Of a stretch of DNA of 64,000 nucleotides, positions 312 to 12,187 are shown one piece after another. Source of the stretch: an uncultured SAR86 cluster bacterium (lineage in GTDB: Bacteria; Pseudomonadota; Gammaproteobacteria; Magnimaribacterales; AG-339-G14). Every line of letters begins with the position of its first letter. The first letter of the stretch is position 1. The translations under genes were made by a program, and so were the position numbers. Location of the stretch: the NCBI GenBank assembly GCA_902616715.1, contig CACMTR010000001.1, forward strand, positions 1-64,000, in the 5' to 3' direction. The notes under the pieces were generated by a model. The model did not search any database. It saw only the letters and a program-made list of their open reading frames with translations, and was not told the origin of the DNA.

Positions 312-2126
312 ATGGCAAATGTAATCGCAGAAATAGGAATAAATTTTGGTGGCAATATTGATACTGCTAAAGATTTGATTTTACAAGCATCTAGGGCTGG
401 CTGCTGGGGCGTTAAATTCCAATACCGTAATACAGAAACTTTTTATTTTGAAGATAATGAAATAGGGGATGCAATTGTCAAAAGTGAAATCCAAAAAAAT
501 AATTTGACCTTTAATCAGATTTCAAATTTACAGAAATACACAAATAGTCTTGGTTTAGAGTTTGGCATGTCATTTTTTCGAGAGGAAGACTTAGGTTTCT
601 ATTTAAGCCATATTAGCGGTCCAGATTTTTATAAGGTACCTTCAGCAGAATGCATGAATGCCATTTTGGTAGATGCAATATTGCAGCAAAATAAAACATT
701 ATTAGTTAGTACTGGTGGACACAGGTTAGAGGAAGTAATAAATCAATACAGCAATGAGAAATACAAACACATAATAATTTTACATTGTATTGCTAATTAT
801 CCTGCTGACCTAGGAATTCAGAACCTCTCAAAGATCAAGAAAATTGCAGAAACTCATCAGCCTGGATATTCAAGTCATGACGTTGATTATGAAGTTTGTA
901 TTGCAGCAATTTCAATGGGGGCTAAATGGATAGAGCGGCATTTAACAAATAATAAAGACGGAATTGGACTAGATGACTCCTCTTCTTCAACTGAAGACGA
1001 AATTAAGTCAATTTGTAAATTTGCAAAGCTTGCAGAAGAGATAATTGGAGCTCCTCATAGTCTGCCTAATCAGGGAGAAATTTTGAATATGCAAAATCTT
1101 GGTACGGGATTGTATTTAAAGCGCAATTTAGACGCAGGGAAAATTTTAAGTTTGGAAGATTGTGTAATAGCAAGTCCCAGAAAAGGCCTTTCAGTAGGCG
1201 AATTTGAGAAAAGCTTTAAGGGTAAAAAACTTAAGAGAGATTTATATGCAGGATCCCCAATAACTGAAATGAGTTTTAAAGTACCTATTAAAGCACTATC
1301 TACCGAGCAGCTTGCTAAAGCAAAACAAAAGAAGATAACAATACCTGTAAGGATTCATGACTTAGAGATAATGCGCAAGAATATTGGGACTGGTAGCTAT
1401 GAGTTTCATTTGTCGTATGAAGAAGTTTTATCAGATGATATTGATAGGGTTGAGGAAATTTGCATGGCTGAAGAAAATTATTCAATACATTTGCCTGATT
1501 ATATTCCTGGTAACCGTATCTTTGACCCACTTTCAAATGACGGACAAACAAACCAGCTTAGTAGAAAAGTGTTGCAAAGGACCGAAAGGATATCTGATAG
1601 ATTAGAACAACTTACTGGTTCCAGAGTTCCTATAGTAGGGTCATTTTCACAGCGAAATACTATGCAGCATGATGAATTCTTTGAAAGGCTAGTTTCAGAA
1701 ATTATCATTAGTTCTAAGCAATTAATCTACCCTCAATGGCTGCCTGTTAACGCTTGGTATTTTGGCGGCACTGTAAAATTAGATGTGTTCAATAATGAAA
1801 AGTATATCCAGATGATCGAAAAACATAGCATTAAAATATGTCTAGACCTCTGTCATGTTATTCTGTCTGCTAATTCACACGGCGCCAATTATAAGGACTG
1901 GGTGGCCAGATTAATGCCTTATACGGAACATCTACATTTGGCAGATGCCGTTGGAGAAAATGGTGAAGGATTGCCCTTAGGAACTGGGCTACCACTAGAT
2001 TATATGGATATTCTTGAAAACAAATATATGAAAGTAATAGAGGTTTGGCAGGGTCACTTTGATGAAGGGTATAAATTTAAACAAGCAGTAAAATATTTAC
2101 TAAACGTGGAGAAATTAAATGACTAA
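312..2126 (+). CDS. NeuB-family ulosonic acid synthase fused to a sugar isomerase/epimerase-like TIM barrel
   Basis: This 604-residue protein has three parts. Residues 1-255 are a NeuB-type PEP-dependent synthase (IAEIGINFGG near the start, KFQYRNTETF, KVPSAE, STGG, HCIANYPA, YSSHDVDYE, IERHLT). Residues about 262-321 are a SAF/antifreeze-like domain (RNLDAGKILSLED). Residues about 342-600 look like an AP-endonuclease-2 or xylose-isomerase-like barrel (DLCHVI, EHLHLADA). NeuB enzymes condense PEP with an N-acyl hexosamine to give a sialic, legionaminic or related acid, and normally end after the SAF domain. The fused barrel may make or modify the hexosamine precursor; this is inference. The gene overlaps gmd by 8 nt, and the cytidylyltransferase follows. 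The exact product cannot be read from the sequence. Confidence 0.82.
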   Translation: MANVIAEIGINFGGNIDTAKDLILQASRAGCWGVKFQYRNTETFYFEDNEIGDAIVKSEIQKNNLTFNQISNLQKYTNSLGLEFGMSFFREEDLGFYLSHISGPDFYKVPSAECMNAILVDAILQQNKTLLVSTGGHRLEEVINQYSNEKYKHIIILHCIANYPADLGIQNLSKIKKIAETHQPGYSSHDVDYEVCIAAISMGAKWIERHLTNNKDGIGLDDSSSSTEDEIKSICKFAKLAEEIIGAPHSLPNQGEILNMQNLGTGLYLKRNLDAGKILSLEDCVIASPRKGLSVGEFEKSFKGKKLKRDLYAGSPITEMSFKVPIKALSTEQLAKAKQKKITIPVRIHDLEIMRKNIGTGSYEFHLSYEEVLSDDIDRVEEICMAEENYSIHLPDYIPGNRIFDPLSNDGQTNQLSRKVLQRTERISDRLEQLTGSRVPIVGSFSQRNTMQHDEFFERLVSEIIISSKQLIYPQWLPVNAWYFGGTVKLDVFNNEKYIQMIEKHSIKICLDLCHVILSANSHGANYKDWVARLMPYTEHLHLADAVGENGEGLPLGTGLPLDYMDILENKYMKVIEVWQGHFDEGYKFKQAVKYLLNVEKLND

Positions 2127-3176: not shown

Positions 3177-3854
3177 ATGGCAAAATATCTTGTAATAGTT
3201 CCTGCGAGAGCAAGTTCTAAAGGAATACGGTTTAAAAATCTATTAGAGATTGATGGGAAGTCTTTGATAGGTCATGCGATAAGCGCTGCCCGCGAAACAG
3301 AACTTGATATCGATATTGTATTATCTAGTGAGAATGATCATATTCTAAAAGAAGGACTTAAATTCGGTGCTAGAGTGCACAGGAGACCTGAACATTTATC
3401 ATCAGATACATCAACTACGATTTCAGTAGTAAAAGATGTATTAAACGCAACAAATTATATACCCGAACTAGTTGTAGTACTTCAACCTACCTCTCCATTT
3501 AGAACTAGTAAAGATATTGTAAGCTCAATTCAGTTGGCTGAAACTACAGAATGTGACAGTGTAATTTCAGTATGCGAAACATCTAATGAAATACTAAAAT
3601 CATTCTATATTAACCAAAATGGCTTCGCCGAGGGTATTTATACGGATGATGCACCTTTCTCACCTAGACAACTTTTACCAAAAGTTTATAAAGCTAACGG
3701 AGCTATATTCATAGTAACCCCCACAGTTATTGAGCAAAAAAATCGTCTATATGGAGACCAGTTAAAACCGTTTATAATGAATAAGAAAAATAGCTTAGAT
3801 ATTGATAGCCATGAGGACTTGATTGATTTGAATTATAAGTTATTTGTTAAATAG
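3177..3854 (+). CDS. Acylneuraminate cytidylyltransferase family (CMP-nonulosonate synthetase)
   Basis: 225 residues, the usual size for NeuA/PseF/LegF-type enzymes. Visible motifs are the N-terminal CTP-binding IVPARASSKGI with KN, LQPTSPFRT, the NGAIFI strand and the C-terminal SLDIDSHEDL. It should activate the acid made by the NeuB-type synthase at 312-2126 to its CMP form for a glycosyltransferase. It is the first of two CMP-sugar synthetases in the island; the other, at 9578-10312, is KdsB-like. Whether the acid is neuraminic, legionaminic, pseudaminic or another cannot be decided here. Confidence 0.88.
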   Translation: MAKYLVIVPARASSKGIRFKNLLEIDGKSLIGHAISAARETELDIDIVLSSENDHILKEGLKFGARVHRRPEHLSSDTSTTISVVKDVLNATNYIPELVVVLQPTSPFRTSKDIVSSIQLAETTECDSVISVCETSNEILKSFYINQNGFAEGIYTDDAPFSPRQLLPKVYKANGAIFIVTPTVIEQKNRLYGDQLKPFIMNKKNSLDIDSHEDLIDLNYKLFVK

Positions 3855-5592: not shown

Positions 5593-6828
5593 ATGCTTAC
5601 ATACTTGATTTTTATCTTGATTTGGCTGAATGTCTGTAAATCAACCTTATCCAGATTCATACTTTTGCTTGTTGCATCCTCAATTTTACTTGGGCTTTTA
5701 ATTGAAATACCATTAGAACTTTTGGATCCTAAAACAAATTTTAACTCATTATTTTCTTGTGCAATCATTACTCTGTTATTGCTTGGCTTCAACTCACGTC
5801 CATCGTTTATACCAGAACGCGATAAATTTACTTATCTAAATACAAAGTTGATAAAGGCTTTTATTGGTCTTTCTTGTTTCGTTGGAATTATTAATATTTA
5901 TATATTCCTAAATTCTTTCTCTGAAATTTTAACGATAGGAATGCTCCCTGAAGAATTTAAGAATAGTGGTTATGGAGAAGATCTTGTTTCAAATAAATTT
6001 CCTTCATTTCTCATAAGATTAAGCTATGCGATAAGCCCAATAAGTTATTTCTGCTTAGCAGCCCATTTTTATTATTTAGTAATTTCAGATAAAAAAATGG
6101 CATTACTATGTTTTGTTGGCTCTTTGAATATTGTCATATTGCCATTGATATATTTTGCAAGGGGGGGGATAGTAATCTACGTTCTTTTATATTTAAGTAT
6201 GTTGGCTTACGTATATAGATATCTTGGTAACTATACTCAGAAGAAAACTAACTATAGGGTAATATCTATTTTAAGTCCGCTAATTTTTATTTTCTTATTT
6301 ATAACCTTAAATAGATTTGGAGATAATTATGTTGATTTTAGAGAGGGAACTTTGGTGTCGAATCATGCTGTTTTTGCACTTTTTGATTACGCATCTCAGT
6401 GGTTAGTCATTGGAAATACATTGATAGAGAATTTCAAAGACATAAATATAATGAATGGAAGTAGTGTTAATTATTTGCCAAGCAAGTTTTTAGGTATATT
6501 TGGTTTTAGCTTTCCTGATTTGCACGAATTAAGACAGCTTAATTTTGGCAATAATTGGAACTCTTTTCAGGGGTTGCCAGCAATTCTATTATATGATTTT
6601 GGTTATTACTTCTCCTTCTTTCTAGCTTTTTTGTACATGGTCACTGCAAGATTTCTATTATCTGGAAGAAAGCATTTATTGCATAGGTTGTCTTGGCTTG
6701 CAGTATTGCTGCCAGTACCTTTATATTTTTTTCAAGGAATGTTTACCGTATATGGGTTTTATAATTTAGCAATACTGTATGCAATTTTTCTATCTGTAGG
6801 ACTTCGCTTGAAGTATATTCCTTCATGA
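5593..6828 (+). CDS. wzy: Wzy-like O-antigen/polysaccharide polymerase (integral membrane)
   Basis: 411 residues, strongly hydrophobic over most of the length, with many predicted membrane segments and a large hydrophilic loop in the C-terminal half (about residues 240-340: NRFGDN, SQWLVIGNTLIENF). This layout, and its place between the flippase and a glycosyltransferase, fits a Wzy polymerase. Wzy joins lipid-linked repeat units on the periplasmic side. Wzy sequences are too diverse for a firm family match by eye, so the call rests on topology and context. Its stop overlaps the start of the next gene by 4 nt (ATGA). Confidence 0.68.
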   Translation: MLTYLIFILIWLNVCKSTLSRFILLLVASSILLGLLIEIPLELLDPKTNFNSLFSCAIITLLLLGFNSRPSFIPERDKFTYLNTKLIKAFIGLSCFVGIINIYIFLNSFSEILTIGMLPEEFKNSGYGEDLVSNKFPSFLIRLSYAISPISYFCLAAHFYYLVISDKKMALLCFVGSLNIVILPLIYFARGGIVIYVLLYLSMLAYVYRYLGNYTQKKTNYRVISILSPLIFIFLFITLNRFGDNYVDFREGTLVSNHAVFALFDYASQWLVIGNTLIENFKDINIMNGSSVNYLPSKFLGIFGFSFPDLHELRQLNFGNNWNSFQGLPAILLYDFGYYFSFFLAFLYMVTARFLLSGRKHLLHRLSWLAVLLPVPLYFFQGMFTVYGFYNLAILYAIFLSVGLRLKYIPS

Positions 6829-7886
6829 CCGATCGCTTGTTTTATGTAGAGACTCAATATCAGTTTTTACAGGCAATGATAATGCTAGTAGATTGGCGTA
6901 ATTCAGGTCATTTGCGCTTGACTGAAGACATCTTTATTGTTGACGGGACACCAGATAAAACTATTTATTCAAAGAAACATTTATTAAAGAAAAATATCAA
7001 TATTAATGTTTTGAATATCAAAGTATATCCATTCTATCTAAGTGCTATATTTTCGCTATTAACTACATATCGATTAAGAAGGTTTCGTGGCTGCAGGTTT
7101 TATATGTTCAACAATAGATCCCCTGTTGCAAGTCGACTTAGCGCAATGTTTGGAAATGGACGCAATGTAGTTCAAATCGAGGAAGGACTTTCTTTATATA
7201 GAACACCAAGAATACATAAACCTTTTAGAAACATTTTGCTGATTCTTAAAAAGATTTTCCTATCAGTCTTGACATTCTCGAACTATAAGGAGCATGTGGG
7301 CCATAGTGATTATACAGATACTGTAATGTTGCGTTATTCTAGCTTAGCCGAAAATAATAAATTTTTGTCATCGAAAAAAATAATTAAACTTCCACCATTG
7401 AAAAATTTATCATCAATATTATCAACTTTGCATTCGGTATATGATTTTGATCAGTTGTGTTTACCAAAATCTAAGGCGGGAAATGTTGTTTTTTTTGGCC
7501 AACCTTTGGGTGAGCTTGGTCTATTAGATTACCAAATAGAATTGAAAAGTGTGAAGGCAGTTGCTAATGCTGTACAGTCATTGGGGTTAAATTTTCTTAT
7601 TAAGACTCATCCAATTGAACGAGAGGGTAAATATTCCTCGCTGGGTTTTGATTTGATTGAAAGTGATACACCAGCAGAAATTATTTTTTCAAACTCTTTA
7701 AATGTGCAGTTTGTTGTAAGTTTTTATTCTACAGCAGCATTAAACGTATCTGAGATGCTTGATATCCCAGGCTATTTTATGTTTGAATCATGTGGTCTTA
7801 AAGTTGACTTTCCAAGTATAGATGGCACGAAAGTATTAGCCTCATTAGATTATGAAAGACTTCGTTCAGAATTCTTGTCTGGTTAA
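6825..7886 (+). CDS. Sialyltransferase-like glycosyltransferase (GT-B, polysialyltransferase/GT52 type)
   Basis: 353 residues. It has the paired motifs of bacterial CMP-sialic acid-dependent GT-B enzymes: an acidic-acidic-glycine motif (IEEGLSLY), an HP motif (IKTHPIE), and a serine-rich SFYSTAALN segment near the C-terminus. The N-terminal FYVETQYQFLQA resembles the start of GT52 and polysialyltransferase proteins. It most likely transfers one of the CMP-activated ulosonic acids made by this island. The neighbouring CMP-sugar synthetases support this. The donor and linkage are unknown. Translation is probably coupled to wzy through the 4-nt overlap. Confidence 0.65.
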   Translation: MTDRLFYVETQYQFLQAMIMLVDWRNSGHLRLTEDIFIVDGTPDKTIYSKKHLLKKNININVLNIKVYPFYLSAIFSLLTTYRLRRFRGCRFYMFNNRSPVASRLSAMFGNGRNVVQIEEGLSLYRTPRIHKPFRNILLILKKIFLSVLTFSNYKEHVGHSDYTDTVMLRYSSLAENNKFLSSKKIIKLPPLKNLSSILSTLHSVYDFDQLCLPKSKAGNVVFFGQPLGELGLLDYQIELKSVKAVANAVQSLGLNFLIKTHPIEREGKYSSLGFDLIESDTPAEIIFSNSLNVQFVVSFYSTAALNVSEMLDIPGYFMFESCGLKVDFPSIDGTKVLASLDYERLRSEFLSG

Positions 7887-7935: not shown

Positions 7936-9570
7936 ATGATTACAAATAAGAAAATCAGTTTAGAATCTAGTCCTATTTTCTTGGACTGCACGCTAAGAGA
8001 CGGCGGTTATTACAACTCTTGGAATTTTTCTCAAGATTTAGCACAGGAATATATCGAAGCAATGCACGCAGCTTCGGTAGATGTTGTTGAGTTGGGGTTG
8101 CGTAGCTTGAAAACCAGTGGCTTTCAAGGACCTTACGCCTATACAACTGATGAATTTCTTGAAGGTTTGAGCATTCCCCCAGAATTGGTGATTGGGATAA
8201 TGGTTAATGGTAGTGAACTTGCGTCACCAGCATCTCAGGAAGCAGCGCTTAATGCTTTATTTCCTTTACCTGCTAGTGAGGCTAAGTTTCAGCTAGTTCG
8301 AATTGCATGCCATGCGCATGAGTTCCGTGACGTATTGCCTGTGGCGAGCTGGCTTAAAGAGCGTGGTTTCATGGTCGGCTTTAACCTTATGCAGGTTGCT
8401 AATAAAAGCGAGTCAGAAATAGTAGATTTGTCAAAGGCAGCCACGTGTTATCCCATTGATGTATTGTATTTTGCAGACTCAATGGGGGGTATGAGTCCTG
8501 AGGATGCTGTTCGCATTATCGGGTGGATCAGGCAGGGCTGGTCAGGATCAATTGGAATTCACACACATGATAATTTGGGACTAGCTCTCCAGAATTCACT
8601 ACGCGCGCTTGATGAAGGTGTCACTTGGGTGGATTCAACTGTCACCGGTATGGGGCGAGGCCCAGGGAATGCCAAGACAGAAGAACTCGTCATTGAAATT
8701 CAAGAACGTAGAGGCAATTCGGTTGATATGGTTCCACTAATGCAACTCATACGTAAACATTTTAAACCTATGCAGAATTTGTATGGTTGGGGAACAAACA
8801 GTTATTATTTTCTAGCTGGAAAATACAATATACATCCGACTTACATTCAAGAAATGCTTAACGATTCAAGGTACAATGAAGAAGATATATTATCTGTGAT
8901 TGAGCATCTTAGGGTTGAAGGCGGGCATAGTTTTGATTCGAATATCTTAGAGACTGCTAGACACTTTTATCGCGGTAAACCCAAAGGCAGTTGGAATCCT
9001 GAGTCTATGATGAAAGCTAAGGAGGTTCTGATATTGGGTTCAGGTCCAGGTGTTGAGTGCCACAAGAGCGCAATAGAATCCTATATTGTCCGAAAAAAAC
9101 CAATTGTATTGGCTCTGAATACCCAATGTTCAATAAGCGCAGATTTAATTGACGTTCGTGTTGCATGTCATCCAGTTCGGCTTCTTTCCGATTGCAAGGT
9201 CCATACTCAGTTACCTCAACCTTTGATAACACCAATTTCTATGTTGCCAGAAGAGATTAAAAAGTTGCTTTCGAATAAGAATACTTTGGATTTCGGTTTA
9301 AAAATTGAAAGCGGAATATTTGAGTTTGGACATCATTTTTGTACTATTCCGACTTCATTAGTAATAGCCTATGCTTTTGCTATAAGTACAAGTGGTGGAG
9401 CAACACGTCTTCTAATGGCGGGTTTTGATGGCTACGGGGCAGATGATCCAAGGAGTCTTGAAATGCAGAGTTTGTTATCGTTCTATCAGTCAAACTCTAA
9501 AGCGTTACCTCTTCTTGCGGTTACACCTAACAAATATTCAATTCCGACTCATTCAATTTACGCTTTGTAA
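7936..9570 (+). CDS. HMGL/HOA-type pyruvate aldolase fused to a MptE-like (DUF115-type) domain
   Basis: 544 residues in two parts. Residues 12-335 are a DRE-TIM metalloenzyme barrel like 4-hydroxy-2-oxovalerate aldolase: LDCTLRDGGYY (16-26), DSMGG (181-185), the metal ligands of HTHDN (His209, His211) and GMGRGPGNAKTEE (238-250). Residues about 360-544 resemble MptE/DUF115 or GT42-like Rossmann domains (VLILGSGPG, ALNTQCS, MAGFDGYGADDPR). It stands directly before a KdsB-like cytidylyltransferase and a HAD phosphatase. I infer that it makes or cleaves a 3-deoxy-ulosonic acid with pyruvate. The 5' part is richer in GC (29 of 60 bases at 8041-8100) than most of the island. Function is otherwise unproven. 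Confidence 0.72.
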   Translation: MITNKKISLESSPIFLDCTLRDGGYYNSWNFSQDLAQEYIEAMHAASVDVVELGLRSLKTSGFQGPYAYTTDEFLEGLSIPPELVIGIMVNGSELASPASQEAALNALFPLPASEAKFQLVRIACHAHEFRDVLPVASWLKERGFMVGFNLMQVANKSESEIVDLSKAATCYPIDVLYFADSMGGMSPEDAVRIIGWIRQGWSGSIGIHTHDNLGLALQNSLRALDEGVTWVDSTVTGMGRGPGNAKTEELVIEIQERRGNSVDMVPLMQLIRKHFKPMQNLYGWGTNSYYFLAGKYNIHPTYIQEMLNDSRYNEEDILSVIEHLRVEGGHSFDSNILETARHFYRGKPKGSWNPESMMKAKEVLILGSGPGVECHKSAIESYIVRKKPIVLALNTQCSISADLIDVRVACHPVRLLSDCKVHTQLPQPLITPISMLPEEIKKLLSNKNTLDFGLKIESGIFEFGHHFCTIPTSLVIAYAFAISTSGGATRLLMAGFDGYGADDPRSLEMQSLLSFYQSNSKALPLLAVTPNKYSIPTHSIYAL

Positions 9571-9577
9571 GGATGCA

Positions 9578-10312
9578 ATGAGAACAACCGTTGTTATTCC
9601 TGCACGTTATGGTTCCAGCAGATATCCGGGAAAACCTCTAGTTCCTCTTCTTGGAAAGCCTATGATAATTTGGGTTGCTGAGTTATGCGCTCGAGCTGTA
9701 GGAAGTGAAAATGTTTACATAGCCACAGAGGATGAACGCATTGCAGACATTGTGCATGCAGCACATTTTTCTCCAATTATAACTAGCATGAATGCTTTAA
9801 CCGGAACTGACAGAGTTGCGGAAGCCTCAAAGCATATTGACGCAGATATTTTTATCAATGTTCAAGGAGATGAGCCTTTGATAGACCCAATTGATATTTT
9901 AAAAATAAGGGACTCAAAGATTCAACATATCGATAAGGTCATAAACGGATTTTCTTGGATCTCAAGTCATGAAGATCCAGAAAATATTAATATTCCTAAG
10001 GTGATTACAAATGAACAAAGCGAGTTAGTTTACATGTCGCGCTTAGTATTACCAGCCTATAAAGATAAAACAAATGCTCCTTCTAACTTTAAAAAGCAGG
10101 TATGCATATATGCGTTTACTGCAGACGAATTAAAATCATTTCATATGTTTGGTCGTAAAAGCACCTTGGAGCATTCAGAAGATATAGAGATTTTACGTTT
10201 TTTTGAATTGAATAAGCGTATTTTAATGGTTGAAACTCAGCCAGGGAGCGCCGCAATTGATGTCCCAAGCGATGTTGGCCTTGTCGAGGCTGAGCTAAAA
10301 AAGAGGCTTTAA
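9578..10312 (+). CDS. KdsB-like 3-deoxy-ulosonate (CMP-Kdo type) cytidylyltransferase
   Basis: The ATG at 9578, four bases after AAGGA (9569-9573), gives a 244-residue protein that starts MRTTVVIPARYGSSRYPGKP, the classic KdsB N-terminus. An upstream frame extension into the aldolase gene is not needed. NVQGDEPLI and the C-terminal AAIDVPSDVGLVEAEL also match the family. KdsB makes CMP-Kdo for lipid A core. A second copy in a polysaccharide locus, placed between the aldolase and a phosphatase, suggests a related acid for the surface polymer. Housekeeping kdsB may be elsewhere, but this could also be the only copy. It overlaps the next gene by 1 nt. Confidence 0.85.
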   Translation: MRTTVVIPARYGSSRYPGKPLVPLLGKPMIIWVAELCARAVGSENVYIATEDERIADIVHAAHFSPIITSMNALTGTDRVAEASKHIDADIFINVQGDEPLIDPIDILKIRDSKIQHIDKVINGFSWISSHEDPENINIPKVITNEQSELVYMSRLVLPAYKDKTNAPSNFKKQVCIYAFTADELKSFHMFGRKSTLEHSEDIEILRFFELNKRILMVETQPGSAAIDVPSDVGLVEAELKKRL

Positions 10313-10965
10313 TGGTGAGATTGGATAAATATAACAGCCTTATCTTTGACTGTGATGGCGTAATCTTGAATTCAAATAAAATTAAGACAGAAGCTTTTTA
10401 CTTTGCAGCTTTGCCTTATGGAGAAGATTTAGCTCAATCTTTAAGGGGCTATCACATTGCTAACGGAGGAGTATCGCGTTATAAAAAATTTTCCTATTTT
10501 TTGGATAAAATTGTCCCAGAAGGAAAAATAGGTCCAAATCTGGAAGAGATGTTGAGGATTTACTCTAGCAAAGTCAATGAAGGTCTTATGAATTGTGAGC
10601 TGGATAGCGGGATTTTTCCATTACGCGAACTTACGTCGTCGACAAAATGGTCTATAGTCTCTGGTGGCGATCAAACTGAATTGCGCAAAGTTTTTGCAGC
10701 GAGGAAATTAGATCATTTATTTGATGGAGGTATTTTTGGAAGCCCGGATAGCAAAGATTTGATTTTGAAACGTGAGCTATCCGCAAAAAGAATAAATGAA
10801 CCAGGTCTTTTCATAGGCGATAGTCGTTATGACCATCAAGCTTCCCAGCGTGCTGGGCTTGACTTTATCTTCGTTAGCCATTGGACTGAATTTGATGACT
10901 GGGATTCCTATTGTAAAAAAAATAAAATACCAATTTTAGAAAATTTAGAAGGTCTTTCACATTAA
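10312..10965 (+). CDS. HAD-superfamily phosphatase of the ulosonic acid cassette
   Basis: 217 residues with the HAD motifs: FDCDGV (nucleophile Asp13 and Asp15), SGGD as motif II, and GDSRYD as motif IV, with a helical cap between. It starts on the last base of the KdsB-like gene (taATG), so the two are translationally coupled. By analogy with KdsC in the Kdo pathway it may remove the phosphate from a ulosonate phosphate before CMP activation. It is of the capped beta-phosphoglucomutase type rather than a true KdsC, so the role comes from context. Confidence 0.75.
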   Translation: MVRLDKYNSLIFDCDGVILNSNKIKTEAFYFAALPYGEDLAQSLRGYHIANGGVSRYKKFSYFLDKIVPEGKIGPNLEEMLRIYSSKVNEGLMNCELDSGIFPLRELTSSTKWSIVSGGDQTELRKVFAARKLDHLFDGGIFGSPDSKDLILKRELSAKRINEPGLFIGDSRYDHQASQRAGLDFIFVSHWTEFDDWDSYCKKNKIPILENLEGLSH

Positions 10966-11211
10966 AATTAAATTAATTTCTTTGGCTTTAGGTTTAAAAA
11001 TTTTTACTCTTTAGTAGATTCAATAATACATCCTAAATAAAATTAGCACTGCCTAATAAGTGTCAAAGATAGATTTAAATTTAAAAGTTATTATCAATTA
11101 AAATTTTTCAAATTACTTGATTTTTAGCTTAAGGAACTTGACTTTAAAACAGTGCGGAGTAAAAAATAAACCGTAAATTTTTTACCAAGGTTATAAATAA
11201 ACTTTGACTTG

Positions 11212-11242
11212 TTGACACAGGATTAAAAATTGTATGTAAGAT
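11212..11242 (+). promoter_or_regulatory. Possible sigma-70 promoter for the second half of the island
   Basis: A perfect -35 hexamer TTGACA (11212-11217) is followed by imperfect -10 candidates, TATGTA (11233, spacing 15) or TAAGAT (11237, spacing 19), just before the ATG at 11252. The 286-bp gap 10966-11251 holds no gene that I can see, so a new transcription unit could begin here. Confidence 0.35.
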
Positions 11243-11251
11243 AAAAAAACT

Positions 11252-12187
11252 ATGAAACAGACATATTTAGTAACCGGAGCGGCTGGATTTATAGGCTCTG
11301 CACTTTCCAAAAAAATATTAGAAATGGGGCACAGTGTAGTTACTGTCGATAACCTTTCTACCGGGAATAAAAGCAATATCCCAAAAGAAGTTGAACTTAT
11401 TGAAGGGGACTGCCAGTCTGACTTGATAATTAACAAGCTTAAGAGATATAAATTTGATGCTATTTTCCACATAGCAGGACAGAGCTCTGGAGAAATATCT
11501 TTCCAAGACCCTATCTACGATTTGCAAACTAATACACAATCCACACTTTTATTATTAAAGTTATGTGAGGAAATAAGTTGCTCCGATTTTATTTATGCTA
11601 GTTCAATGTCAGTATATGGCGATCCAGATAAGTTACCGGTTTCAGAACATGCTGATTGTAACCCAAAATCTTTTTATGCAGTTGGAAAGCTTGCTAGTGA
11701 AAATTATCTAAAAATATACTCTAATAAACACCTTAAAACTACTGCGCTTAGGTTTTTTAATGCTTATGGGCCAGGCCAAAATCTTAGTAATATGAAGCAA
11801 GGAATGGTGAGTATTTTTCTTTCGATGGCTTTAAAAAGCAATAAAATTAACGTTAGAGGTGATCCGAATAGATTTAGAGATTTTATTTATATAGATGATT
11901 TAATTAACGGTATTTGGAGCTCACTTAATCGAAAAGGATCAAATTTTGAAGCAATTAATTTATCTAGCGGTAAAAAGACTACAGTTAAAGAAGTAGTTGA
12001 TTGCATAAATAACAATGTCTTTGGAGATATAGATATCAATTACTCTCTAGGAACACCTGGTGATCAATTTGGTATTTATGGCTCTACAGAATATGCTCTA
12101 GAGCTGCTTGGTTGGAAAACTGAGGTTAATTTCATAGATGGAATGAAAAAGATGGTTCGATGGGCAAAAGAGCACCTAGATGAATAG
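11252..12187 (+). CDS. NAD-dependent epimerase/dehydratase (UDP-glucose 4-epimerase-like SDR)
   Basis: 311 residues, extended SDR. The NAD loop is TGAAGFIGS near residue 8, the catalytic segment SSMSVYGD, and the YxxxK is YAVGK. RFFNAYGPGQ and the RDFIYIDDL segment place it in the GalE/WbpP-type NDP-sugar group. It probably epimerises or dehydrates a UDP- or dTDP-hexose for one residue of the repeat unit; the substrate cannot be read by eye. The stop overlaps the start of the next gene by 8 nt. Confidence 0.78.
   Translation: MKQTYLVTGAAGFIGSALSKKILEMGHSVVTVDNLSTGNKSNIPKEVELIEGDCQSDLIINKLKRYKFDAIFHIAGQSSGEISFQDPIYDLQTNTQSTLLLLKLCEEISCSDFIYASSMSVYGDPDKLPVSEHADCNPKSFYAVGKLASENYLKIYSNKHLKTTALRFFNAYGPGQNLSNMKQGMVSIFLSMALKSNKINVRGDPNRFRDFIYIDDLINGIWSSLNRKGSNFEAINLSSGKKTTVKEVVDCINNNVFGDIDINYSLGTPGDQFGIYGSTEYALELLGWKTEVNFIDGMKKMVRWAKEHLDE

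Follow-up and report, generated by a model that had tools for sequence, protein, structure and literature searches.

The NeuB/NeuA and KdsA/KdsC/KdsB routes to cytidine monophosphate (CMP)-activated ulosonic acids use phosphoenolpyruvate (PEP)-dependent synthases, and KdnA/KdnB represents another CMP-ulosonic acid route. In the routes known to us, which lead to 3-deoxy-manno-octulosonic acid (Kdo) and to sialic, pseudaminic and legionaminic acids, PEP is used to make the carbon-carbon bond and drives the pathway forward. Here we analyzed a stretch of 64,000 nucleotides from an uncultured SAR86 cluster bacterium (contig CACMTR010000001.1; hereafter the window), in which three adjacent genes at 7936-10965 on the + strand encode an aldolase fused to a second domain, a KdsB-like cytidylyltransferase, and a haloacid dehalogenase (HAD) phosphatase. 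These gene calls had been made earlier from the DNA letters alone (the sequence-only reading) and were confirmed by the open reading frames (ORFs) and their Pfam domains. On the strength of sequence comparisons, we consider it probable, at roughly 0.6, that the three genes form a cassette dedicated to a non-Kdo ulosonic (2-keto-3-deoxy) acid in CMP-activated form, which would be made by a PEP-independent pyruvate-aldolase route.

The fusion gene (7936-9570, 544 amino acids) encodes an HMGL/HOA-like aldolase domain of the DRE-TIM type (residues ∼1-344, 7936..8967), followed by a C-terminal domain with a predicted MptE/Maf/GT42 sialyltransferase-like fold (residues ∼345-544, 8968..9570). The KdsB-like ORF, as listed, begins with TTG at 9425 and ends at 10312, but the likely start of the gene is ATG at 9578, giving a protein of 244 amino acids (9578..10312) and leaving 7 bases between the aldolase stop codon and this start. 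The HAD gene (10312-10965, 217 amino acids) overlaps the KdsB-like gene by 1 base. All three lie on the + strand.

Recurrence of the gene set in bacteria and viruses

Full-length fusions were found in 6 of 274 genomes of the window's class (12 of 274 if partial matches, which are unfused relatives, are counted at E <= 1e-20), in 2 of 398 genomes of its phylum, and in 3 of 101 genomes of its order (one of them broken), the window's own genome being included each time. Fusions were also present in 8 of the 62 genomes searched from one family, in Halomonas sp. S3-1-1, in Pseudomonas ullengensis, and on three Leisingera plasmids. Together these are 20 different bacterial fusion loci, distributed over Leisingera (Alphaproteobacteria) and several families within the class of the window. 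At all 20, a cytidylyltransferase lies next to the fusion or in the short gene run that contains it; PF02348 called it above cut-off in 11 loci, and the remaining 9 calls come from BLAST or from record annotation. It is of the KdsB type in 13 loci and of the NeuA type only in 7. The HAD is present at 19 of the 20 loci, the remaining one (G158) being cut by the contig end, and in G672 the HAD gene stands between those for aldolase and KdsB. Nine loci with unfused HOA-like aldolases, which served as a control, showed neither a convincing cytidylyltransferase nor a convincing module HAD in the 8.7 to 20 kb that were fetched; the best matches had E 4e-4 (110 residues) and E 8e-4 (70 residues). A search of E. 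coli genomes with one module copy gave no DNA match. The sequence-only reading had suggested looking for the same set elsewhere, and the set as a functional unit is borne out by the 20 bacterial loci and by the viral fusions described below. Two copies look broken: G158 carries an internal stop (L007/L018), and the 5' part is disrupted in G672 (L039-L040).

We compared the divergence of the three genes over 19 loci (G158 left out). The pairwise identities of aldolase and HAD were strongly correlated (r = 0.96; none of 1000 label shuffles was as high), whereas those of aldolase and cytidylyltransferase were not (r = 0.17; 126 of 1000 shuffles as high). For example, G053 and G809 share 88% identity in the aldolase and 89% in the HAD but 22% in the cytidylyltransferase, and the comparison of G809 with both G053 and G814 gave 87-88%, 89-93%, and 15-22%, respectively. 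Although species kinship can inflate such correlations, it would raise that of the cytidylyltransferase as well. The aldolase and HAD appear to behave as a fixed pair, with the cytidylyltransferase apparently swapped between the KdsB and NeuA types. Known members of both classes activate ulosonic acids, and because two classes of CMP-acid synthetase serve one aldolase/HAD pair, the product is likely to be an acid sugar.

When the flanks were searched by tblastn with two NeuBs and the window genome's own KdsA, no relative was found in the fetched flanks of 19 of the 20 loci, and only the window itself had one. The flanks vary from 4.5 to 30 kb, and distant synthases may have escaped detection. 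Clustering of 13 neighborhoods revealed SDR epimerases in 8 and no further family common to all, so the aldehyde substrate would probably come from central metabolism. A pair of genes for an HpcH/HpaI aldolase and a NeuA-type enzyme lies inside the module at L019 (8368-9129), L020 (8384-9148), and L111 (1458-2189), and in G813 this pair occurs in addition to a KdsB-type enzyme.

In viruses, the aldolase is joined directly to the cytidylyltransferase. We found 16 IMG/VR contigs, in about seven similarity groups, that carry aldolase::KdsB in one ORF (one of which runs off the contig end), and Pfam confirmed both domains in all five viral fusions scanned. The viral KdsB parts fall in the module clade (100/96), nested among the bacterial module KdsBs. 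A stand-alone MptE-like protein was detected by BLAST in 12 of the 16 contigs, and a small HAD lies nearby in 13. Of nine contigs tested, those of 177 and 181 kb, the largest, carry a gene for a T4-type gp23 capsid protein, so at least two of the viral contigs derive from tailed phages. No INPHARED phage record matched either query over 80% of its length, and neither of the two viral fusions scanned against PHROGs hit a family at E <= 0.001. Four contigs (L121, L122, L123, and L127, around 9716-11887) encode NeuB and a NeuA-type cytidylyltransferase besides aldolase::KdsB, and these viruses may make two CMP-acids; L121, the one of these scanned with Pfam, also encodes an RraA-like (PF03737) protein.

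Properties of the module enzymes

The KdsB-like protein of the window matches PF02348 (E 1e-34), and R10, S/T14, R15, and K19 of the cytidine triphosphate (CTP) loop, together with D98 and D228, are retained in the 7 module enzymes and the 8 viral fusions that were aligned. By their place in the alignment, we take D98 and D228 to be the metal-binding aspartates of KdsB. In our first tree, seven module KdsBs formed one clade (100/99), separate from the KdsBs encoded outside the module in the same genomes, and six module NeuA-type enzymes formed another (100/96). A KdsB outside the module was present in all 11 module genomes searched; these were called canonical by their tree position, and the equivalog check was made for the window genome. 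There, the sequence-only reading had allowed that the KdsB-like gene might be the sole Kdo cytidylyltransferase and simply make CMP-Kdo. That it is the only one was excluded, as a KdsB and a KdsA encoded elsewhere in the genome pass their equivalog cut-offs (TIGR00466, 169.4 bits against 155.2; TIGR01362, 335.2 against 314). In contrast, the module KdsBs of the window, Halomonas, and a virus score 136.8, 127.3, and 128.3 bits, respectively, and miss the TIGR00466 cut-off.

Further, the replacements V140P, H174Q, G176C, and Q205I/L (canonical letter first, window numbering) split all 13 module KdsBs from all 12 canonical ones. The altered residues of the window protein are P140, M153, Q174, C176, I203, and I205, and the signature Q, C, I, I was found in all eight viral fusions checked, with P also in seven. 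Because separate KdsB and KdsA proteins exist, the equivalog cut-off is missed, and otherwise invariant residues are replaced in 13 of 13 module KdsBs, the enzyme probably takes a substrate other than Kdo. Nine of the 13 discriminating columns lie in the C-terminal half, the part that the KdsB structure paper, which is also our source for the roles of the CTP-loop residues, gives to dimerization and Kdo binding (PMC3149649). The Leisingera records name the module KdsB 3-deoxy-manno-octulosonate cytidylyltransferase.

The aldolase domain was identified by PF00682 (HMGL-like, residues 14-259, E 3.6e-27, 95.8 bits against a gathering score of 29). This was the only Pfam family in the fusion protein at E <= 0.001, with neither a NeuB nor a DAHP_synth_1 domain. 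The nearest solved structure is 3dxi, the N-terminal domain of BVU_2661 (E 3.4e-49), followed by DmpG (1nvm); the AlphaFold2 model of the full-length fusion is weak (predicted local distance difference test (pLDDT) 59.6), and the fold search was used for the titles of the barrel relatives. DRE-TIM barrels bind metal and pyruvate through a conserved Arg, Asp, and His-x-His; the corresponding R21, D22, H209, and H211 occur in every one of the 29 aldolases compared. The catalytic His of 4-hydroxy-2-oxovalerate aldolase (HOA), which we take to be H21 of DmpG, after LRDGS, is His in the 1nvm alignment but Tyr (Tyr25) in all 13 bacterial fused and all 7 viral rows. The fusion scores 96.2 bits with the HOA equivalog TIGR03217, far under the cut-off of 286, and no aldehyde dehydrogenase was found among the ten window proteins scanned with Pfam, in contrast to HOA aldolase. 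Unfused HOA-like aldolases near short-chain dehydrogenase/reductase (SDR) and HAD-IA genes were seen on a Paraburkholderia symbiosis plasmid (L033, 7980-9005) and on a plasmid of a root-nodule Mesorhizobium (L034, 7971-8993).

For the C-terminal domain, the AlphaFold2 model is of moderate confidence (pLDDT 66, predicted template modeling score 0.70). Foldseek with this model returned one match at E <= 0.001, MptE (8sd5), and VIA-align, in which models without relatives typically score Z 7 to 8, gave Z 9.8 for MptE (8sd5), 9.7 for Cst-I (2p56), 9.5 for CstII (1ro8), 8.5 for Maf (5mu5), and 10.3 for SteA (9hmz). The GT42, Maf, and MptE alignments (Z 8.5-9.8) span 155-171 residues at 14-20% sequence identity. 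The MptE/DUF115-like label of the sequence-only reading holds up as the likely fold, judging from the model, but not as a Pfam family: the window domain has no match to PF01973 (gathering score 34.6), one of 12 copies reaches E 0.048, and no Pfam family is significant. Over 12 copies, 20 columns are invariant, including N395, H412, D504, R506, E509, and T530-P531, but the copies share no conserved His after the GFDGY motif, where CstII has its catalytic His, or elsewhere in the second half of the domain. The domain may bind a CMP-acid. Maf relatives are described as transferring ulosonic acids (PMC11339370).

The HAD matches PF13419 (HAD_2, E 7.8e-10), and its DCDGV, S117, K148, and GDS are invariant in 12 copies. 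It has no match to the KdsC family TIGR01670, and the NCBIfam scan gave just TIGR02009 (19.7 bits). At E <= 0.001, TIGR01670 was detected neither in the window genome nor in a total of 59 of 61 genomes of its order, some of which are incomplete; the KdsC step in this order is probably carried out by another phosphatase. We rejected the idea that the HAD is present because KdsC is missing, since KdsC is unrecognized throughout these 59 genomes and the module is rare (3 of 101). Plasmid-borne HAD relatives (∼24-31% identity; 14 of 17 records) were likewise rejected as module members, as none of the four annotated regions among the five read lists a cytidylyltransferase. G814 carries two module HAD copies (L107, 3668-4324 and 6081-6761), each ∼89% identical to that of G053.

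Proposed pathway and its alternatives

In the route that we propose, the metal-dependent aldolase domain would enolize pyruvate, the donor expected from its superfamily, and the metal-bound enolate would act as nucleophile and be added to an aldehyde, which is probably an aldose phosphate. Once the HAD had removed the phosphate, the KdsB-like enzyme, or a NeuA-type enzyme in other organisms, would activate the free acid with CMP. A glycosyltransferase encoded nearby, polysialyltransferase-like or of another kind, would put the acid into a surface polysaccharide, and the GT42/MptE-like domain at the C-terminus is probably a binding site for the nucleotide-activated acid or for some related nucleotide. 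That the fused aldolase itself makes the activated acid seems to us reasonably probable.

Several results weigh against this proposal. Since Tyr replaces the catalytic His of HOA, the domain need not be active as a pyruvate aldolase. In the aldolase tree, the bacterial fusions and the viral forms make up separate groups with weak support (77/48 and 78/79, respectively), and two unfused nodule-plasmid aldolases sit close to the bacterial fusions. How far the bacterial and viral versions correspond is also partly uncertain: hhalign gave a probability of 12% between the bacterial C-terminal domain and the viral stand-alone MptE-like proteins, so that a counterpart is not established; the module HAD and the viral small HAD are not clear relatives (profile comparison probability 4%); and, of the signature, only the Q is present in two stand-alone viral KdsBs that fall immediately outside the module clade. 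The NF003952 Kdo subfamily cut-off of 193 bits is passed by the module KdsBs of the window (216.6), Halomonas (217.1), and the virus (220.3), and NF009905, a model named Kdo cytidylyltransferase, is passed by the latter two but not by that of the window. Finally, an extra HpcH/HpaI aldolase and a NeuA-type enzyme occur in 3 of the 20 loci (G249, G053, and G813), where the fused aldolase may consequently not make the activated acid. The suggestion in the sequence-only reading of a CMP-ulosonic acid route without PEP did not predict this additional aldolase, although the recurrence of the set, the viral fusion, and the lack of NeuB or KdsA beside 19 of the 20 loci lend it weak support.

These points bear on what else the genes might do. 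If the cassette were an alternative supply of CMP-Kdo, pyruvate and arabinose 5-phosphate would give Kdo 8-phosphate, the HAD would release Kdo, and the KdsB-like enzyme would make CMP-Kdo for the polymer; the Kdo subfamily models just mentioned agree with this, and in an order in which KdsC is hardly recognizable an extra phosphatase could be useful. However, the lack of KdsC is order-wide and not tied to the module, a KdsB exists outside the module in every module genome searched, and the KdsA and KdsB encoded elsewhere in the window genome pass their equivalog cut-offs, that for KdsB being missed by the three module KdsBs scanned. The replacement of V, H, G, and Q of the 12 other KdsBs in all 13 module KdsBs, together with the NeuA-type swaps, further argues against Kdo as the product, and we consider this explanation quite improbable. 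It is also unlikely, if somewhat less so, that the fused aldolase makes or breaks another compound, for instance to supply an aldehyde or a pyruvate-derived group, with the CMP-acid coming from HpcH/HpaI or housekeeping enzymes. Both the HpcH/HpaI and NeuA-type pair and Tyr25 are in keeping with such a role, but no relative of that HpcH/HpaI protein was found in the fetched flanks of 17 of the 20 loci, NeuB and KdsA are lacking in those of 19, and the viral proteins fuse aldolase and KdsB directly. Genes are freely shuffled in O-antigen islands, and functionally unrelated genes could have come together by chance; such an origin is contradicted by the co-occurrence at 20 and 19 of the 20 loci, the correlated divergence, and the viral fusion, and is very improbable.

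Overall, we favor the non-Kdo CMP-acid cassette. The broader proposal, of a class of CMP-ulosonic acid synthesis in which a metal-dependent DRE-TIM pyruvate aldolase replaces the PEP synthase, which occurs in bacteria as a GT42/Maf-like fusion and in tailed viruses as a CMP-synthetase fusion, and which yields a hitherto unrecognized ulosonic acid other than Kdo, is tentative, and we put it at slightly short of even odds. Our search of the open-access literature found no description of this aldolase/HAD/cytidylyltransferase route; the parts are of known kinds, and we did not find the combination described in the literature or in PHROGs. If the proposal is true, a route through a pyruvate aldolase would be reversible and would depend on the pull of the phosphatase and CMP steps, with the viral fusion joining the aldol and activation steps in a single protein. 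It would also suggest acid sugars not yet described on bacterial, perhaps viral, surfaces and a new enzyme set for making them, and the annotation of the module KdsB as a Kdo cytidylyltransferase in the Leisingera records would be corrected.

Neighboring genes and comparison with known systems

Upstream of the fusion gene, separated from it by 49 bases, lies a gene for a polysialyltransferase-like glycosyltransferase (6825..7886, + strand; PF07388, E 7.2e-14). This protein is a candidate user of the module's CMP-acid, and the NeuB/NeuA product could equally feed it. Such a NeuB/NeuA-type pair, which the sequence-only reading had placed in the same island, is indeed present on the + strand: a NeuB-type synthase (312..2126; PF03102, E 6.5e-39) and a NeuA/PseF-type cytidylyltransferase (3177..3854; PF02348, E 6.2e-19), its probable partner, which falls outside the module NeuA-type clade in the tree. 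They probably constitute a separate acid route and serve here as context; two CMP-acids may enter one polymer, as the sequence-only reading suggested. In the protein at 312-2126, the NeuB and SAF (PF08666) domains are joined to a xylose-isomerase-like TIM barrel (PF01261, E 1.4e-7), an architecture that we do not know from any ulosonate synthase.

Compared with the NeuB/NeuA, KdsA/KdsC/KdsB, and KdnA/KdnB systems, the module would be expected to follow the same logic of carbon-carbon bond formation, dephosphorylation, and CMP activation. Unlike the NeuB/NeuA and KdsA/KdsC/KdsB systems, it has a member of a pyruvate-aldolase superfamily, and 19 of its 20 loci have no NeuB or KdsA relative beside it in the fetched flanks. 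Its activating enzyme resembles KdsB and KpsU CMP-Kdo synthetases in family, in the CTP-loop residues, and in the two aspartates, but differs from them in its separate clade, its changed C-terminal-half columns, and its score under the TIGR00466 cut-off. Maf flagellin glycosyltransferases and GT42 sialyltransferases, which take CMP-ulosonic acid donors, and MptE appear, from the model, to have their fold in common with the module's C-terminal domain, but the module domain is fused to an aldolase and has no conserved His where CstII has its catalytic one. Finally, the module aldolase shares the DRE-TIM barrel and the Arg/Asp/His-x-His site with 4-hydroxy-2-oxovalerate aldolase (DmpG/BphI) and with the HOA-like BVU_2661, which itself has more than the barrel, as the title of 3dxi, "N-terminal domain of a putative aldolase," suggests; unlike DmpG/BphI, it has Tyr in place of the catalytic His and a C-terminal domain of another fold.

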